Positions 28,295 to 41,777 of a stretch of 64,000 nucleotides of DNA are shown here, piece by piece (position 1 is the stretch's first letter; each line of letters starts with the position of its first letter). The notes under the pieces are model-generated. The model was not told the origin of the DNA. It saw only the letters and a program-made list of their open reading frames with translations, and did no database searches. Both the position numbers and the translations under genes were made by a program. The stretch is from Halobacterium sp. CBA1126 (lineage in GTDB: Archaea; Halobacteriota; Halobacteria; Halobacteriales; Halobacteriaceae). The stretch is taken from assembly GCF_009741975.1 (NCBI RefSeq), contig NZ_WPCF01000001.1, positions 1 to 64,000 on the forward strand, read 5' to 3'.

Positions 28295-28360
28295 GTTCAG
28301 GATTCTGTGCGGGTGAGCCCCAGCAGCCCGTCACGGGACCGGGGCAGAGAAACCACAAAA

Positions 28361-28569
28361 ATGTTCGAGTTCATCAACGAGGAAGACGAGCGCGGTCAAG
28401 TGGGGATCGGGACGCTCATCGTGTTCATCGCGATGGTCCTGGTCGCCGCGATCGCCGCCGGCGTCCTCATCAACACCGCGGGTGTCCTCCAGACCCAGGC
28501 CGAGGACACGGGGCAGGACAGTACCGACCAAGTCGCGAACAACATCAACGTCATCGGCGCCGTCGGTGA
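28361..28569 (+). repeat. Near-identical 5' end shared by the two archaellin genes (copy 1)
   Basis: Bases 28361-28569 match 29120-29328 at 206 of 209 positions. The three differences are synonymous (GCG ATC to GCA ATT, GCC to GCA). Identity then falls abruptly and the genes diverge until a conserved middle block and C-terminus. Both code for the signal peptide and assembly helix. Confidence 0.9.
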
Positions 28570-29110
28570 AGTGAACGACGTGAGCGAAGTCGAGTACGAC
28601 GACACGACCGTCTACGAGATCCGGACGACGGTCCAGAAGTCCCCGGGCGCGGGTGACATCGACCTCTCCGGGCTGAGCATCCAGTACGTCGGCCCGAACG
28701 GGTTCGGTAACCTCGTCCACATCAGCGAGAAGAACACGTCCCAGCACAACGTCTCCAACGTCTACTTCGTGCAGGCCATCACGGCCGAGACCGAGGAAGA
28801 CACGGTGATGACCTCCGAGAGCGACCGCTACGAACTGGTCATCCCGACCGGTACCTACTGGGACAACAGCAGCGATACGATCCAGAACGCGACCGATGGC
28901 GTTGAGGTTGCCGCGGGTGCCTACGAGGATGTCGACGACATCGACGCCAACCCGTCCGGGGTCGACATCGACAACACGGACCTCGACCTGCTTCAGGAGA
29001 GCGACCGCGTCGAGCTGACCATCACGACCGACTCGGGTTCGCAGCGCTACGTGAACCTCCGCGTCCCGTCCTCGCTCGTCGGTGACGAGGGCGGCACGGT
29101 CACGCTGTAA
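28361..29110 (+). CDS. arlB1: Archaellin (flagellin), first copy
   Basis: This 249-residue pre-archaellin has a class III signal: the charged start EEDERGQ, likely cleaved by archaellin peptidase around RGQ|VGIG, then the hydrophobic assembly helix [20 protein letters not shown]. The rest is the outer beta domain, with N-glycosylation sequons NTS, NVS, NSS and NAT. It is the main filament subunit type. The first 209 bases are almost identical to those of the next gene, 759 bases downstream. The codon choice is less GC-biased than in neighbours (for example GGT and GTT), as in highly expressed genes. In Halobacterium salinarum the matching locus is flgB. Confidence 0.95.
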
Positions 29111-29119
29111 TCCAGAGTA

Positions 29120-29944
29120 ATGTTCGAGTTCATCAACGAGGAAGACGAGCGCGGTCAAGTGGGGATCGGGACGCTCATCGTGTTCATCGCGATGGTCCTG
29201 GTCGCCGCAATTGCCGCCGGCGTCCTCATCAACACCGCGGGTGTCCTCCAGACCCAGGCCGAGGACACGGGGCAGGACAGTACCGACCAAGTCGCGAACA
29301 ACATCAACGTCATCGGCGCAGTCGGTGACATCTCGGAGTCGGACGGTACCGCACCGCCGATCGTGAACACGACCAGCGAGTCCGGCACGCAGAACTTCAC
29401 GACCTTCGAGAACGCGACCGACCAACCGAAGGCACACACCATCCGGCTCGCCGTGCAGAAGTCGCCGGGTGCTGCCGACATCGACCTCTCCGGGCTGAGC
29501 ATCCAGTACGTCGGCGGGGACTCGTTCGCGAACCTCGTCCACGCCACGCAGGCTGAAGCGCCCGTCGTGACGAACGTCAGCGACGAACCGGTCATCGAAG
29601 ACGGGAACAACGGTGAACCCGGTTACTTCGTCAGCAAGATCACCGCCGAGAGCGACGACACGGTGATGACCGCTGAGAGCGACCGCTACGAGATCGTCAT
29701 CCCGCTCCAGCAGGCGTACAACACGAGCGCTGACTCGGCGGAGAACGTCGACCAGGAAGATGTCGGTAGCGCCATCGACTCGCTCAACTCTGACGAGGGC
29801 TACGACAACAGCAAGCTCGGTCTCCTCGACGAGGGCGACGTCGCCGAGCTGACGATCACCACGGAGTCCGGTTCGCAGCGCTACGCGAACCTCCAGGTGC
29901 CCGACTCGCTCGTCGGCGACGAAGGCAGCACGGTCCAGCTGTAG
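29120..29944 (+). CDS. arlB2: Archaellin (flagellin), second copy
   Basis: This 274-residue archaellin lies nine bases after the first and surely in the same operon. It shares the leader and hydrophobic helix, a middle block [20 protein letters not shown] and the ending [20 protein letters not shown], but differs in the surface loops. Sequons NTT, NFT, NAT, NVS and NTS are present. Filaments of haloarchaea usually mix several archaellins, and the ratio can affect flexibility or handedness. Halobacterium salinarum has three genes at the same place and two elsewhere; only two are seen here. Confidence 0.95.
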
Positions 29945-30018: not shown

Positions 30019-30684
30019 TCACTCGGAGGTTGTCGCCGGTGACGCCGACGTGCCGTTGTCCGCTGTCTCGTTCTCGAGCGCTTCGTCGGTGTAGCCGCTC
30101 GCGAACACGGTGTTGAGGAGTTTCGTGCCGTCCCACTCGCCGCTGTTGTACTTCTGGACCCAGTCGCGGCGCACGAGGTAGCCGTCGGGCTGTTCGGCGG
30201 GGTCGTGGGGGTTCTCGATGTGGGCGTGGACGACGTCGGCTTCGTCGCCGTCCTGTGCGACGTACTCGGCGTACATGCGCGCCATCTGGCCGACCTCGCG
30301 GACGTGCTGGCGCTGCGGGGGGACGTCTTCGACCTCGCCGGCGCGCGTGCGATACGAGATTTCGACGGCGTCCGCGTCGGGGGAGTAGCGGAACTCCGTG
30401 ACGTCGAGGCGGGCGGCCTCGGTGCCGCTGTTCTCGAGGATGTAGTGGAACTCGGCGAGCGTCGCGGTGCCGTCGTCGTTCGGCTCCTCGGGTTCGACAG
30501 TCCGCGTCCCGCCGGGCTCGTCGTCGCCGAGGACGGTGTAGCCGACGCCGAGCACGGAGCCGAGGCCGATGCCGGCCGCGCCCACGACCATCGTCCGTCG
30601 GGAGACGTCGAGCACGCCGCCGTCGTCGGCGCCGGCGTCGTCGGTCGGTGGGTCGCTGGGCGTCGAACCGTCGTCTTCGCTCAT
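30019..30684 (-). CDS. Tat-exported protein of unknown function inside the motility region
   Basis: This 221-residue protein has an acidic, disordered start (about 1-27), then SRRTMVVGAAGIGLGSVLGVG (about 28-48), a twin-arginine signal followed by a hydrophobic stretch, without a clear lipobox. The exported part is about 170 residues, with HYILENSGTEAARLDVTEFRY and the Trp/Tyr-rich end DYLVRRDWVQKYNSGEWDG-like motif near 165-185, and an Asn/Thr-rich tail with sequons. I recognise no family. It lies between the archaellin operon and the HEAT/CheF genes, so an envelope role linked to the archaellum is possible. A TATA box (CATATACG, about 30703-30711 on this strand) implies a leaderless mRNA. 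Confidence 0.75.
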   Translation of the reverse strand: MSEDDGSTPSDPPTDDAGADDGGVLDVSRRTMVVGAAGIGLGSVLGVGYTVLGDDEPGGTRTVEPEEPNDDGTATLAEFHYILENSGTEAARLDVTEFRYSPDADAVEISYRTRAGEVEDVPPQRQHVREVGQMARMYAEYVAQDGDEADVVHAHIENPHDPAEQPDGYLVRRDWVQKYNSGEWDGTKLLNTVFASGYTDEALENETADNGTSASPATTSE

Positions 30685-30778
30685 GGCGGCGCCTATGCGG
30701 CCCGCGTATATGTCGCTTGGGCACTCGTGTCTGCGGGTTTACGTGTTTTCCGCGCGGGTGCTCGACCACCAACACCGA

Positions 30779-30786: not shown

Positions 30787-30808
30787 TTCTCGTCGTAACG
30801 TCCGGGTA

Positions 30809-32029
30809 GTGCCATCGCTGTACGGGCTCGAACGCTCCGGCGACGTCGAGAAGCTCGTCGAACTGCTCCGGGAGAGCGAGAAGGAGACGGTTCGGCGCCG
30901 CGCAGCCGAGATTCTCGGGAACCTCGACGACCCGGAGTCGGCGGGGTTGGACGCGCTCGTGGAGGCGATGAGCGACGAGGAGGCCACCGTCCGCGCGGCG
31001 GCCATCGACGCGCTCACCCAGCAGGAGGCGGTCGAGGCCCTGATGAAGGGGCTGGGGGAGTCGGTCCCGGAGTCGGGGGCGACGTGGGCGCAGGCGGAGG
31101 CGTTCGTGGAGAACCTGCGCGCGGACACGGTGGAGCTGCGGATGGCGTCGGCGAACGTGCTGGGGTTGCTCGGCGTAGAGGACGCGGCGAAGCCGCTGGC
31201 CCAGCGCCTGCAGTCCGAACCCCACCCCGAGGTGCGGGCGCGGATTGCGCGCGCGCTCGGCCGCATCGGCGACCCGTCGGTCGCGGGCGTGCTCGTGGAG
31301 TGCCTGGAGGGGCAGCCGCTGGGCGTGCGCCGGGAGGCCGCGGAGGCGCTCGGCCGGCTGAACGGCAAGACGGCGCTCCGGGGACTGCTGCAGGTCGTCG
31401 ACGACGACAGCGAGGAGATGCGGCGGACGGCCGTGAGCTCGCTGGGGAAGTTCGAGAACGCCAAGCCCGTCGACGCGCTGGTCGAGCGGCTGGGCGACGA
31501 GAGCGACCTCGTGCGCCGGGCGGCGGTGTTCTCGCTCATCGAGATCCTGTCGAACGTGCCGCCGGACCGCAGCCACGAGCTCCGGGAGACCATCGTCGAC
31601 CGGATGGCCGCGCGCAGCGACCCCTCCATCGTGGCCTCGCTCGTGGAGATTATCGAGGAGGGAACCCAGATTCACCAGCGCCGGAACGCGGTGTGGATGC
31701 TCGGCCGGGTCGCCGGCGACAAGTCAACGAAGATGGAGGCCGTGGAGGCGCTCCGCGACGTCCTCGGCGAGGACGACGACCTCATCTCGCAGTTCGCGGC
31801 GACCGGGCTCGCGGAGATCGGCGGCCGGATGGTTGAGACGGCGCTGCTGGAGGTCATCGAGACCGACGAGTACGGCGACGACTCGGTGGCGATGGCGGCG
31901 TTCGCGCTCGGGAAGGTCGGCGGCGAGCGCTCCCGGAAGCGCCTGGAGAAGCTCGTCGACGAGACCGAGAACGCGGAAGTGCGCCGGCGGGCGTTCTCCG
32001 CCATCTCGAAGCTCGGCGGCCACACGTAA
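30809..32029 (+). CDS. HEAT-repeat chemotaxis-archaellum linker protein (homologue of Halobacterium OE2401F)
   Basis: The protein has 406 residues from a GTG start placed by the TATA box. It is made of about ten to twelve HEAT/PBS-lyase-type repeats, each with pattern VRRRAAEILGNLDDPES, VRAAAIDALTQQEAVEA, RARIARALGRIGDPSVAG and so on. Longer upstream in-frame sequence is Arg/Ser-rich and lies before the promoter. In Halobacterium salinarum the HEAT_PBS protein encoded beside the two CheF genes binds CheF proteins and the archaellum, linking CheY output to the motor. Position and repeat type support the same role. It is followed after 165 bases by cheF1. Confidence 0.9.
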   Translation: MPSLYGLERSGDVEKLVELLRESEKETVRRRAAEILGNLDDPESAGLDALVEAMSDEEATVRAAAIDALTQQEAVEALMKGLGESVPESGATWAQAEAFVENLRADTVELRMASANVLGLLGVEDAAKPLAQRLQSEPHPEVRARIARALGRIGDPSVAGVLVECLEGQPLGVRREAAEALGRLNGKTALRGLLQVVDDDSEEMRRTAVSSLGKFENAKPVDALVERLGDESDLVRRAAVFSLIEILSNVPPDRSHELRETIVDRMAARSDPSIVASLVEIIEEGTQIHQRRNAVWMLGRVAGDKSTKMEAVEALRDVLGEDDDLISQFAATGLAEIGGRMVETALLEVIETDEYGDDSVAMAAFALGKVGGERSRKRLEKLVDETENAEVRRRAFSAISKLGGHT

Positions 32030-32120: not shown

Positions 32121-32198
32121 ATGAGTAGGGACGCGCCGGGCCGGCACGCAACCGTTGGGGCTGGGACGCCCGCCCGTCCGCTCGGGGAAGCCGAATGA
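32121..32198 (+). CDS. Predicted leaderless 25-residue upstream ORF overlapping cheF1
   Basis: The frame ATG...TGA encodes MSRDAPGRHATVGAGTPARP and five more residues (LGEAE). Its stop overlaps the cheF1 start in ATGA (32195-32198), the same coupling seen in other operons here. The TATA box places the mRNA 5' end at its ATG. It is basic and Gly/Pro/Arg-rich, unlike a folded halophile protein, so it probably acts by its translation rather than as a product. cheF1 has no good Shine-Dalgarno of its own, which would make re-initiation after this ORF useful. It could also be chance. Confidence 0.45.
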   Translation: MSRDAPGRHATVGAGTPARPLGEAE

Positions 32199-33064
32199 GC
32201 GAGTCCGAGTACAAGATCGCGGACGGCGCCGGGAAGTTCCTGCAGGCGGTCAAGGACGGCCGGCGGATGAAGGACGCGGACTGGACGAACGGCCGCATCC
32301 TCCTGTCGAACAAGCGCATCGTCCTCGCGGGCAACGACGGGAAGCGCAGCCTCCCGCTGTCGAAGGTCTCCAGCCTGAGCGGCCGCTACGACGTCAACCA
32401 GACGGTCGCGAAGGTCAGCGACTACGTCTCCCTGCAGATGGAGAGCGAGAGCGTCGTGCTGGTCTCGATGGGGGAGAACACCGAGCAGTTCGAGACCAAA
32501 CTCTACGGCGCGCTGCTCGACCAGACGGAGCTGCTCGTGAAACACCCCGCGGTGAAGGGCGGCGTCGTCCAGGACGAGTCCTTCGAGCGCGCGCGCATCA
32601 AGGTCGACGACGACCAGCTGAGCGTCGCGATGCAGAACGGGTCGTTCGTCCCCGTGGACCTCGACGACGTCGGCTCCGCGGAGGCCGCCTCGCTGGACGT
32701 GCAGGGCGAGAAGAGCCCCGTGCTGAAGGTCGAGCACACCGTCGAGGACACGAGCGTGCAGACGTACTTCTCCAGCGACTCGCACACGTGCTCGATTCTG
32801 GAGTCGCTGCTGACGAAGGAAGCCGAGAAGAGTCAGGGCTCCGTGGACCTCTCGGAGACGGAGAAGCGCGTGCTGATGGCCCTGTACTCGGGGGTGTCGT
32901 CGTTCGAGATTCCGGACTTCCTCGGGATGGACGTCGACGAGGTCGAGTCCATCTTCGAGCGGCTCATCGAGGTCGACGTCTTAGAGGAGGTGCGCAAGCG
33001 CCGCGAGGTGACGATGAAGACCCGCGGGCGGAACATCGCCAGCGAAGCCATCAACGAGGAGTAG
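32195..33064 (+). CDS. cheF1: CheF1, archaeal adaptor between CheY and the archaellum (DUF439)
   Basis: This 289-residue protein belongs to the Archaea-specific CheF (DUF439) family. The N-terminal half is beta-rich, with RILLSNKRIVLAGNDGKRSL and a repeat-like middle; the C-terminus is a winged-helix-like region (SETEKRVLMALYSGVSSFEI, then VDVLEEVRKRREVTM). CheF binds phosphorylated CheY and docks on ArlD/CE, so the switch signal reaches the motor. It pairs with cheF2 on the opposite strand; the two stops are about 18 bases apart. Strong sequence likeness to CheF2 in the region of KHPAVKGGVVQDESFERARI shows paralogy. Confidence 0.93.
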   Translation: MSESEYKIADGAGKFLQAVKDGRRMKDADWTNGRILLSNKRIVLAGNDGKRSLPLSKVSSLSGRYDVNQTVAKVSDYVSLQMESESVVLVSMGENTEQFETKLYGALLDQTELLVKHPAVKGGVVQDESFERARIKVDDDQLSVAMQNGSFVPVDLDDVGSAEAASLDVQGEKSPVLKVEHTVEDTSVQTYFSSDSHTCSILESLLTKEAEKSQGSVDLSETEKRVLMALYSGVSSFEIPDFLGMDVDEVESIFERLIEVDVLEEVRKRREVTMKTRGRNIASEAINEE

Positions 33065-33082: not shown

Positions 33083-33946
33083 TCACATGTTGACGTCTTC
33101 GATGTGCTCGCTGACGGCGGCCCGGCCCATCGACGTGAGCCGCGGGCCGTCGTCGTCGCGGACGAGTTCCTTGTCGATGAGGTCGTTGAGCAGCACCGTG
33201 AGCCGGCTGGCGTCGACGCCGAGGACGGTCGCGAGGTTCGCGCTCGGGCCGCTGGAGTAGATGGCGACCAGCGCCTCGACCTCCTCCTCGGAGAGGTCGA
33301 CGTCCGCGAGGTCCTGCTTGAGGAGCGTGTAGCGGAGGCGGATGAACCGCCCGAGGAGGTTCATCTTCCGGCCGGAGTCGAGCGCGAGCTCAGTCGTCAC
33401 GGGCCCGGTCCCGTCCATGTGCCGGACGGACAGCAGCTGCTGCGAGGAGCCGCCGAGCTCGCGGTTCACGCGCTCGAAGTGCGTGACCGTGGAGACGTCG
33501 ATTTCGGCGGCGGCGTCCCCGCGGAGTTCGACGGTGCCCGGGGAGACCGACAGGGTCCGGGACTCGAAGCTCCGGTCGGTGACGCGGCCGCCGCGGCGCG
33601 CGGGGTGTTTCGCGTACACCGTCGACCCGTTCAGCAGGCCCTTGAAGACGAGGATGACGAAGCGTTCGACCGTGTCGCCGGCGCCCTCGACGACGGCGAC
33701 GCGGCGGTCGCCGTCGCGCTCGTAGGCGATGGTGACGGTGTCGTCGAAGAACTCCGCGAGGTCGCCGGGCGCGGTGTCGTGCTGGACGTCGAAGACGCCG
33801 CCCAGCGGGATGGTGACGCGGTCGTCGTCCGTGGCGAGGACGATGCGTCGCTTGCTCATCACGACGCGCCCGCGCACGGGCTCGGCGTGCGTGGCCGTGT
33901 CGGGGATGAACGACGTGACGAAGTCCGCGATGGCTGATTCCGACAT
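33083..33946 (-). CDS. cheF2: CheF2, second CheY-archaellum adaptor (DUF439)
   Basis: This 287-residue CheF paralogue shares RGRVVMSKRRIVLATDDDRV, KHPARRGGRVTDRSFESRTL and the C-terminal helix LSEEEVEALVAIYSSG with CheF1. It lies downstream of cheR on the minus strand with a TATA-like CTTATTCTG at about 33982-33991, so it may have its own promoter inside the che operon. In Halobacterium salinarum deletion of this second CheF has a milder or different effect on switching. The end DVNM at 33083 converges on cheF1. Confidence 0.92.
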   Translation of the reverse strand: MSESAIADFVTSFIPDTATHAEPVRGRVVMSKRRIVLATDDDRVTIPLGGVFDVQHDTAPGDLAEFFDDTVTIAYERDGDRRVAVVEGAGDTVERFVILVFKGLLNGSTVYAKHPARRGGRVTDRSFESRTLSVSPGTVELRGDAAAEIDVSTVTHFERVNRELGGSSQQLLSVRHMDGTGPVTTELALDSGRKMNLLGRFIRLRYTLLKQDLADVDLSEEEVEALVAIYSSGPSANLATVLGVDASRLTVLLNDLIDKELVRDDDGPRLTSMGRAAVSEHIEDVNM

Positions 33947-41144: not shown

Positions 41145-41777
41145 CTACCGCCGGGGGAAGACGAGGCCGTCCTCCTCGGAGACGGTCTCCACGAGCTCCC
41201 GAATCGAGTCCTCGGGCCCGAGGTCGTGGGCCTCGAGGTACGCGACGAGCCGCGACGTCGGGTAGCGAGCCTGCACGCTGGACTCCGCGAGCAGGATGCC
41301 GAGCGCCTCGTCGACGGGCGTGCCCGCCGCGACCTGCTGGGCGTACCAGACGAGCAGCCCGTCGAAGGCCGCGCCGATGTCGTCGGTCGCGAGCTGCTGG
41401 TGGTTGATGGAGTCGCCGGACTTCGCAGCGATGCGGTAGGCGTACTCGCTGTCGTGCTCGTCGAGTTCGTCGCCGAGCCACCGCTTCACGTCCCGGCCCG
41501 TGACCTCGCCGTCGTCCGCGTCCTCCGCGTCCGCGGCGTCCTCGCTGGCGTCCTCGTCGTCGGATGCTTCGGGCTCGTCGGCTGATTCCTCGTCTGCCTC
41601 CGCGTCCTCGTCGTCGACGGTCGCTTCGTCGGCGTCCTCGGGGGGGTCCGGCGGGCCGTCGGGACCGATGACGTACCGGTCGCCCCCGATCGAGGCCACC
41701 TCCTCGCGGGCCTCGATGTCGAGCTCGTCCGGGGAGAGGACGGTTTCGTCGGCGTCCGGGTCGCCGGATGGGGCCAT
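41145..41777 (-). CDS. Uncharacterised acidic haloarchaeal protein at the edge of the che cluster
   Basis: This 210-residue protein has an acidic, Asp/Glu/Ala-rich N-terminal half (about 45-95) and a folded C-terminal part with AYRIAAKSGDSINHQQLATD and WYAQQVAAGTPVDEALGILL, which appears helical. No enzyme motif, signal or membrane helix is seen. Proteins of this type sit near cheW in several haloarchaea by my memory (a DUF7500-like family), but function is unknown. It is transcribed in the same direction as cheW1, about 49 bases upstream of it, and could be co-regulated with it. Confidence 0.78.
   Translation of the reverse strand: MAPSGDPDADETVLSPDELDIEAREEVASIGGDRYVIGPDGPPDPPEDADEATVDDEDAEADEESADEPEASDDEDASEDAADAEDADDGEVTGRDVKRWLGDELDEHDSEYAYRIAAKSGDSINHQQLATDDIGAAFDGLLVWYAQQVAAGTPVDEALGILLAESSVQARYPTSRLVAYLEAHDLGPEDSIRELVETVSEEDGLVFPRR

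Follow-up and report, generated by a model that had tools for sequence, protein, structure and literature searches.

ArlF and ArlG have been described as a putative stator of the archaellum that reaches the S-layer (in the passages available to us of PMC12024892, PMC8978795, PMC8667602 and PMC12448462). Two of these papers, in the same passages, treat as open questions the anchoring of the archaellum in the archaeal envelope and the identity of its static parts (PMC12024892, PMC8978795), and the term 'lipoprotein' had no match in the accessible text of PMC12024892, PMC8978795 and PMC12448462. The neighbouring HEAT-repeat and CheF proteins have also been described, together with their function in switching (available sections of PMC2666748); no mention of the protein studied here was seen in those sections, the bioinformatics section included. 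Likewise, the accessible portions of the open-licence literature searched yielded no paper naming it.

We analysed a window of 64,000 nucleotides from Halobacterium sp. CBA1126, in which a gene at 30019..30684 on the minus strand, here called X, encodes a putative Tat-exported, archaellum-associated protein. The open reading frame starts with ATG and specifies 221 residues (the coordinates include the stop codon), and its orthologues are found in synteny. Two adjoining archaellin genes (28307..29944, plus strand) match PF01917. The divergent neighbour of X is a HEAT-repeat protein gene (30800..32029, plus strand, start codon approximate), recognized by HEAT_2 and HEAT_PBS and by the adjacency of orthologues; the window also holds the CheF1 gene (32195..33064, plus strand; PF04283) and a second CheF gene (33083-33946, minus strand). 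The first-pass annotation had placed X between archaellins and CheF/HEAT adaptors, and the PF01917, HEAT and PF04283 matches on either side confirmed this position. The host genome contains a single full-length copy. When orthologues from four genomes of the same genus were compared, we found that all were full length, 76-83% identical and next to archaellins, with a dN/dS of about 0.26-0.37. A promoter-like, TATA-like CCCAAG...CATATA box (30707..30721, minus strand) lies about 30 nt before the ATG of X; among eight aligned upstream regions of orthologues the CCCAAG half was kept in seven, and the other half read CATATA in six and CAAATA in two. A scan for promoters and terminators returned one terminator-like site, at chance level. 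Collectively, the orthologues, the dN/dS values and the kept upstream box indicate, at the level of sequence, that X is a genuine gene under purifying selection, and it is probably read from a promoter of its own, divergently to the HEAT gene.

The N-terminal region of X was found to carry a twin-arginine signal that would also serve as membrane anchor (residues 28-53; 30526..30603, minus strand). The motif S28-R29-R30 lies within S-R-R-T-M-V-V (28-34), and a hydrophobic stretch spans residues ~31-51; twin arginines followed by a moderately hydrophobic stretch are the features expected of a Tat substrate. Library Tat models matched 4 of 17 aligned relatives with Pfam and 5 of 17 with NCBIfam, and the window protein was matched by neither. 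The protein has a pI of 4.1 and not a single cysteine, and thus no lipobox, so that the earlier proposal of a twin-arginine signal without lipobox was borne out. What had been said of the C-terminus held in part: the sequons are present (N205 and N210), but the supposed Trp/Tyr-rich end amounts to Trp 175, Trp 184 and scattered Tyr. Among the relatives the picture is different, as a lipobox precedes the domain in 68 of the 82 homologues examined; the three distant homologues of the window's own GTDB family (G003, G006 and G024) are Tat proteins with an AGC lipobox. The other 14 of the 82 keep the twin arginines and lack the cysteine, and they fall into three separate groups: the window's genus with a neighbouring genus, genus g42 of family f5, and genus g85. 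The family therefore consists mostly of Tat lipoproteins, of which the window member is not one. It shares the twin-arginine signal with haloarchaeal Tat lipoproteins, and it differs from them in being cysteine-free and in having a domain with no Pfam or NCBIfam entry.

Database searches did not place X in a described family. Pfam gave nothing significant (best E 0.33; up to E 1 the only match was a non-significant one to QcrA_N), single-sequence searches of NCBIfam, PHROGs and PDB sequences found no family covering X, and PDB sequence profile searches each returned one weak, unrelated match. In addition, X did not match PF01917 at E 0.1, whereas the window's ArlF, ArlG and two archaellins did; membership of X in the ArlF, ArlG or archaellin families was ruled out on this ground. 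A scan of genome contigs with the window protein as sole query gave no matches. Since a full-length profile also caught unrelated Tat proteins through their signal, it was replaced by a domain-only profile, which identified homologues in 82 of 392 genomes of the order, all at E 1.9e-18 or better. Two further genomes, G115 and G296, in which the domain is split by an insert and the reading frame was confirmed open at the locus, brought the number to 84: 69 in the Natrialbaceae (family f8), 11 in the window's GTDB family (f1; 11 of its 26 genomes) and 4 in genus g42 of family f5. A class-wide search of 292 genomes revealed no family beyond these three. Weaker relatives of the domain, at E values of about 1e-7 to 1e-14, were seen in families f4 and f5, including a 133-residue open reading frame in many genomes of the f4 genus g25. 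Judging by their sequences, these relatives, together with those at loci L112-L118, suggest a wider haloarchaeal domain superfamily.

The structure of X was predicted with AlphaFold2. The folded, presumably extracytoplasmic domain covers residues 62-208 (~147 residues; 30061..30501, minus strand), with a pLDDT of 72-93 over ten-residue blocks between residues 61 and 200, and is predicted to run alpha-beta-beta-alpha-beta-beta followed by three helices. The domain of a Halopiger homologue was predicted with higher scores (pLDDT 95.7, pTM 0.90) and showed the same order of elements, again followed by helices. Residues such as E78, E130, G146 and W175 are invariant. Foldseek against the PDB gave no match below E 0.001, nor any under E 0.05. 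The structural neighbours were all weak, with Z below 8 and low identity. They comprised the C-terminal domain of CamS-type sex-pheromone lipoproteins (3n2q, Z 6.9 with rmsd 3.5 over 97 residues and a second score of Z 6.5; 4hn3, Z 6.4, rmsd 3.4 over 98; 2qx2, Z 6.2, rmsd 3.7 over 100; 3ib5, Z 5.7 and 5.4), C-terminal domains of metal transporters (5.8), and ring-forming domains from secretion and flagellar machinery: the inner ring of a type III secretion system (8axn, Z 5.3, rmsd 2.5 over 69), the flagellar structure 7cgo (Z 4.2, rmsd 4.6 over 86) and GerM (6gzb, Z 4.2, rmsd 4.3 over 94). Because the scores of CamS, metal-transporter C-terminal, RbfA and ring-forming domains all fell within a narrow range, the attempt to name a fold family was dropped; the likeness of the model to CamS and ring domains may reflect just a common arrangement.

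We then examined where the homologues are encoded. Neighbourhoods of up to ~9.5 kb on each side were scored for all 84 genomes. An initial scoring covered 84 loci from 83 genomes; the two loci of the archaellum-less genome G110 were excluded from the reported 84, and G115 and G296 were added after it. The weak matches at L112-L118, which have no arl gene nearby, were left out of the arl-locus count. The results revealed X within ~9.5 kb of archaellum genes, the arl locus, in 60 of the 84 genomes, and between idsA and gltX in the other 24, where idsA, named from its sequence, encodes GGPP synthase and gltX glutamyl-tRNA synthetase. All 11 homologues of the window's family lie among arl genes. 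Many Natrialbaceae loci carry X, HEAT, CheF1 and archaellins in this order on one strand, while in arl loci without CheF, X adjoins the archaellins. In the named natrialbacean loci X was found at HEAT-CheF1 and/or arl genes in 18 of 18, a sample that overlaps the f8 genomes and so is not independent of them.

Two side observations concern these loci. An open reading frame of the window at 41145-41777 (minus strand) belongs to DUF7500 (PF24332, E 3e-59), and relatives of it directly adjoin X in L051, L053, L111, L129, L133, L134, L141, L157, L163, L164 and L170-L172. By these positions DUF7500 appears to be a second unstudied archaellum-linked family, beside X in many arl loci; a literature search found no mention of it. 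Moreover, within genus g1, which includes the window, the archaellins of the six X-bearing genomes (L044-L048 and the window) match PF01917 partly or over a longer stretch, and those of seven X-less genomes (L054-L060) are classical archaellins matching PF01917 positions 1-161, which may be a mere subclade difference.

The distribution of X was compared with that of the archaellum. Archaellins were present in all 84 genomes with a homologue, as compared with 287 of the 392 background genomes of the order. X was found in each of the 69 archaellated Natrialbaceae genomes, and 17 of 17 archaellum-less ones (the genomes of this kind visible among the listed results, at least 17) had no intact copy. 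The same 17 genomes had no true ArlI either, their matches reaching 34-37% identity or being weaker, as against ~77-83% in the core between the ArlI of archaellated Natrialbaceae loci and that of the window. Conversely, among archaellated genomes, 12 of the 23 in the window's family and ~203 of the 287 in the order had no detectable homologue, which makes X an accessory and not a core part; X as a core archaellum component was ruled out by its absence from those 12 genomes. X is mostly encoded with the archaellum genes and is kept or lost with the archaellum, as would be expected of an archaellum accessory.

Genus g14 allowed loss to be followed apart from linkage, since X lies there between idsA and gltX and a deletion of the arl cluster alone cannot remove it. 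In four archaellated controls the idsA-gltX spacer measures 822-975 bp. Among the eight archaellum-less genomes of the genus, X was not found in five (G168, G032, G164, G213 and G048), where the spacer measures just 77-283 bp, and two (G069 and G160) retain, in a spacer of 525 bp, a truncated remnant of X with the lipobox sequence TADC; the G160 remnant has lost the twin arginine as well. In the eighth, G192, X was not found, and idsA was outside reach. In genus g44, the archaellum-less genome G110 carries a copy frameshifted mid-gene, and in G322, also archaellum-less, X was not found at the site. The remnants in G069, G160 and G110 (loci L201, L202 and L185) make up a natural loss series. 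A gltX tree built from 69 f8 genomes was used to draw independent contrasts in archaellum state on well-supported branches, and X followed the archaellum in 6 of 6 pairs (sign test, p = 0.031); the best gltX tree requires 11 changes. Should the frameshift in G110 be a sequencing error, X would be retained in one genome without an archaellum and one contrast could fail. Reading the idsA-gltX copies as an unrelated general lipoprotein was given up, as X is absent, truncated or frameshifted there in archaellum-less relatives. Orthologues of X were thus neither rarely near arl genes nor found intact in the listed archaellum-less Natrialbaceae (60/84 at the arl locus, 84/84 with archaellins, 17/17 without intact X). 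The earlier suggestion of an envelope component tied to the archaellum, here a Tat-exported, membrane-tethered one by its sequence, is therefore well supported, by gene neighbourhood, by co-occurrence with archaellins and by loss with the archaellum. The narrower roles put forward with it, helping the archaellum through the S-layer or joining ArlF/G to the cell surface, would be candidate functions.

A different distribution was found for chemotaxis. No PF04283 (CheF) match was present in 48 of the 84 genomes with X (41 of 69 in the Natrialbaceae, 4 of 4 in the f5 genus g42 and 3 of 11 in the window's family), indicating that X tracks the archaellum and not chemotaxis; confinement of X to the CheF/HEAT chemotaxis adaptor branch was ruled out on the same count. 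The 41 archaellated Natrialbaceae genomes without a CheF match also raise the prospect that many of these organisms may swim lacking the CheF adaptor. In Halobacterium the CheF/HEAT adaptors (OE2401F, OE2402F and OE2404R) resemble X in that its gene adjoins theirs in the same cluster, but X carries an export signal and persists where CheF is missing.

These data bear on several explanations of what X does. A place in the chemotaxis-archaellum switch, as an outer-face partner of the HEAT/CheF adaptors that helps to set the direction of rotation, would account for the adjacency to HEAT in the window's family and, in many Natrialbaceae loci, for the position immediately preceding HEAT-CheF1 in the same orientation. 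It is largely refuted by the CheF-less genomes, and since HEAT and CheF are cytoplasmic adaptors whereas X bears an export signal, we consider it very improbable. Slightly less so is that X is a general envelope Tat lipoprotein hitch-hiking in the arl locus with no role in motility. The 24 genomes with X elsewhere and the weak domain relatives at places unrelated to arl would suit such a protein; against it stand the decay of the unlinked idsA-gltX copy in archaellum-less relatives and the agreement of all six contrasts, which make it improbable.

As an exported sensor or regulator, X would monitor the state of the envelope or filament and control archaellum synthesis, which would agree with a membrane-tethered domain whose gene has its own promoter-like box, divergent from HEAT. 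However, X has no cytoplasmic domain, only ~27 residues preceding the anchor, so that signalling would require a further partner, and of the explanations considered we give this one the least credence. An assembly or maturation factor deserves more attention, although we regard it as unlikely. X would then be an outer-face chaperone for the folding, glycosylation or insertion of archaellin, ArlF or ArlG and would not stay in the finished machine. The same co-occurrence data, and the location of X, usually beside archaellin genes or within the arl locus, would be expected of such a factor; on the other hand, sequence and structure searches brought up no known chaperone or enzyme resembling X, and the invariant residues named above form no obvious catalytic set.

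On balance, we think it fairly likely that X is a dedicated outer-face, membrane-tethered accessory of the archaellum, most likely one that attaches to the base of the machine on its extracytoplasmic side, and thus probably a component of the archaeal swimming motor that has been overlooked. The protein would be produced next to the archaellins, and Tat would export it in folded form. At the membrane it would be retained through a lipidated lipobox cysteine in most relatives and through the uncleaved hydrophobic signal in the window's lineage. Its small alpha/beta domain would thereby be placed between membrane and S-layer. Needed just when an archaellum is present, with or without the CheF chemotaxis branch, it would most likely bind the ArlF/ArlG stator or the proximal filament and so support, guide or anchor the archaellum base, perhaps as a collar or as a link to ArlF/ArlG or the S-layer. 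In these respects X would resemble ArlF and ArlG, which likewise lie outside the cytoplasm, are tethered to the membrane, have their genes in the arl locus and are tied to the archaellum; it differs from them in its twin-arginine signal, in having no PF01917 domain and in its restriction to certain lineages, and its predicted alpha/beta domain contrasts with the beta-sandwich that the title of a cited paper ascribes to ArlF.

The topology of ring-building domains is alpha-beta-beta-alpha-beta. A bolder and unlikely reading is that X forms a ring or collar outside the cytoplasm, the first such structure to be recognised in the haloarchaeal archaellum, in which lipid- or signal-anchored alpha-beta-beta-alpha-beta domains of the ring-building kind encircle the filament base between membrane and S-layer. 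If true, the ring would steady the rotor and the ArlF/ArlG stator, and it would do what outer rings do in bacterial flagella while having arisen separately. A literature search for 'ring-building motif' together with 'archaellum' found nothing linking the two.

As an outer-face accessory of the archaellum base, X would be in keeping with the first-pass annotation's proposal of a part not assigned in current models, which fits the review passages available to us; a universal part is excluded, as most archaellated haloarchaea searched have no detectable homologue. For genetic work, CRISPR editing has been reported in Natrinema gari J7-2 (PMC10433800). The decay of X at an unlinked site after loss of the archaellum is evidence of function that goes beyond gene neighbourhood, and for a large group of haloarchaea the family offers a specific candidate, open to genetic testing, for a component of the archaellum outside the cytoplasm.
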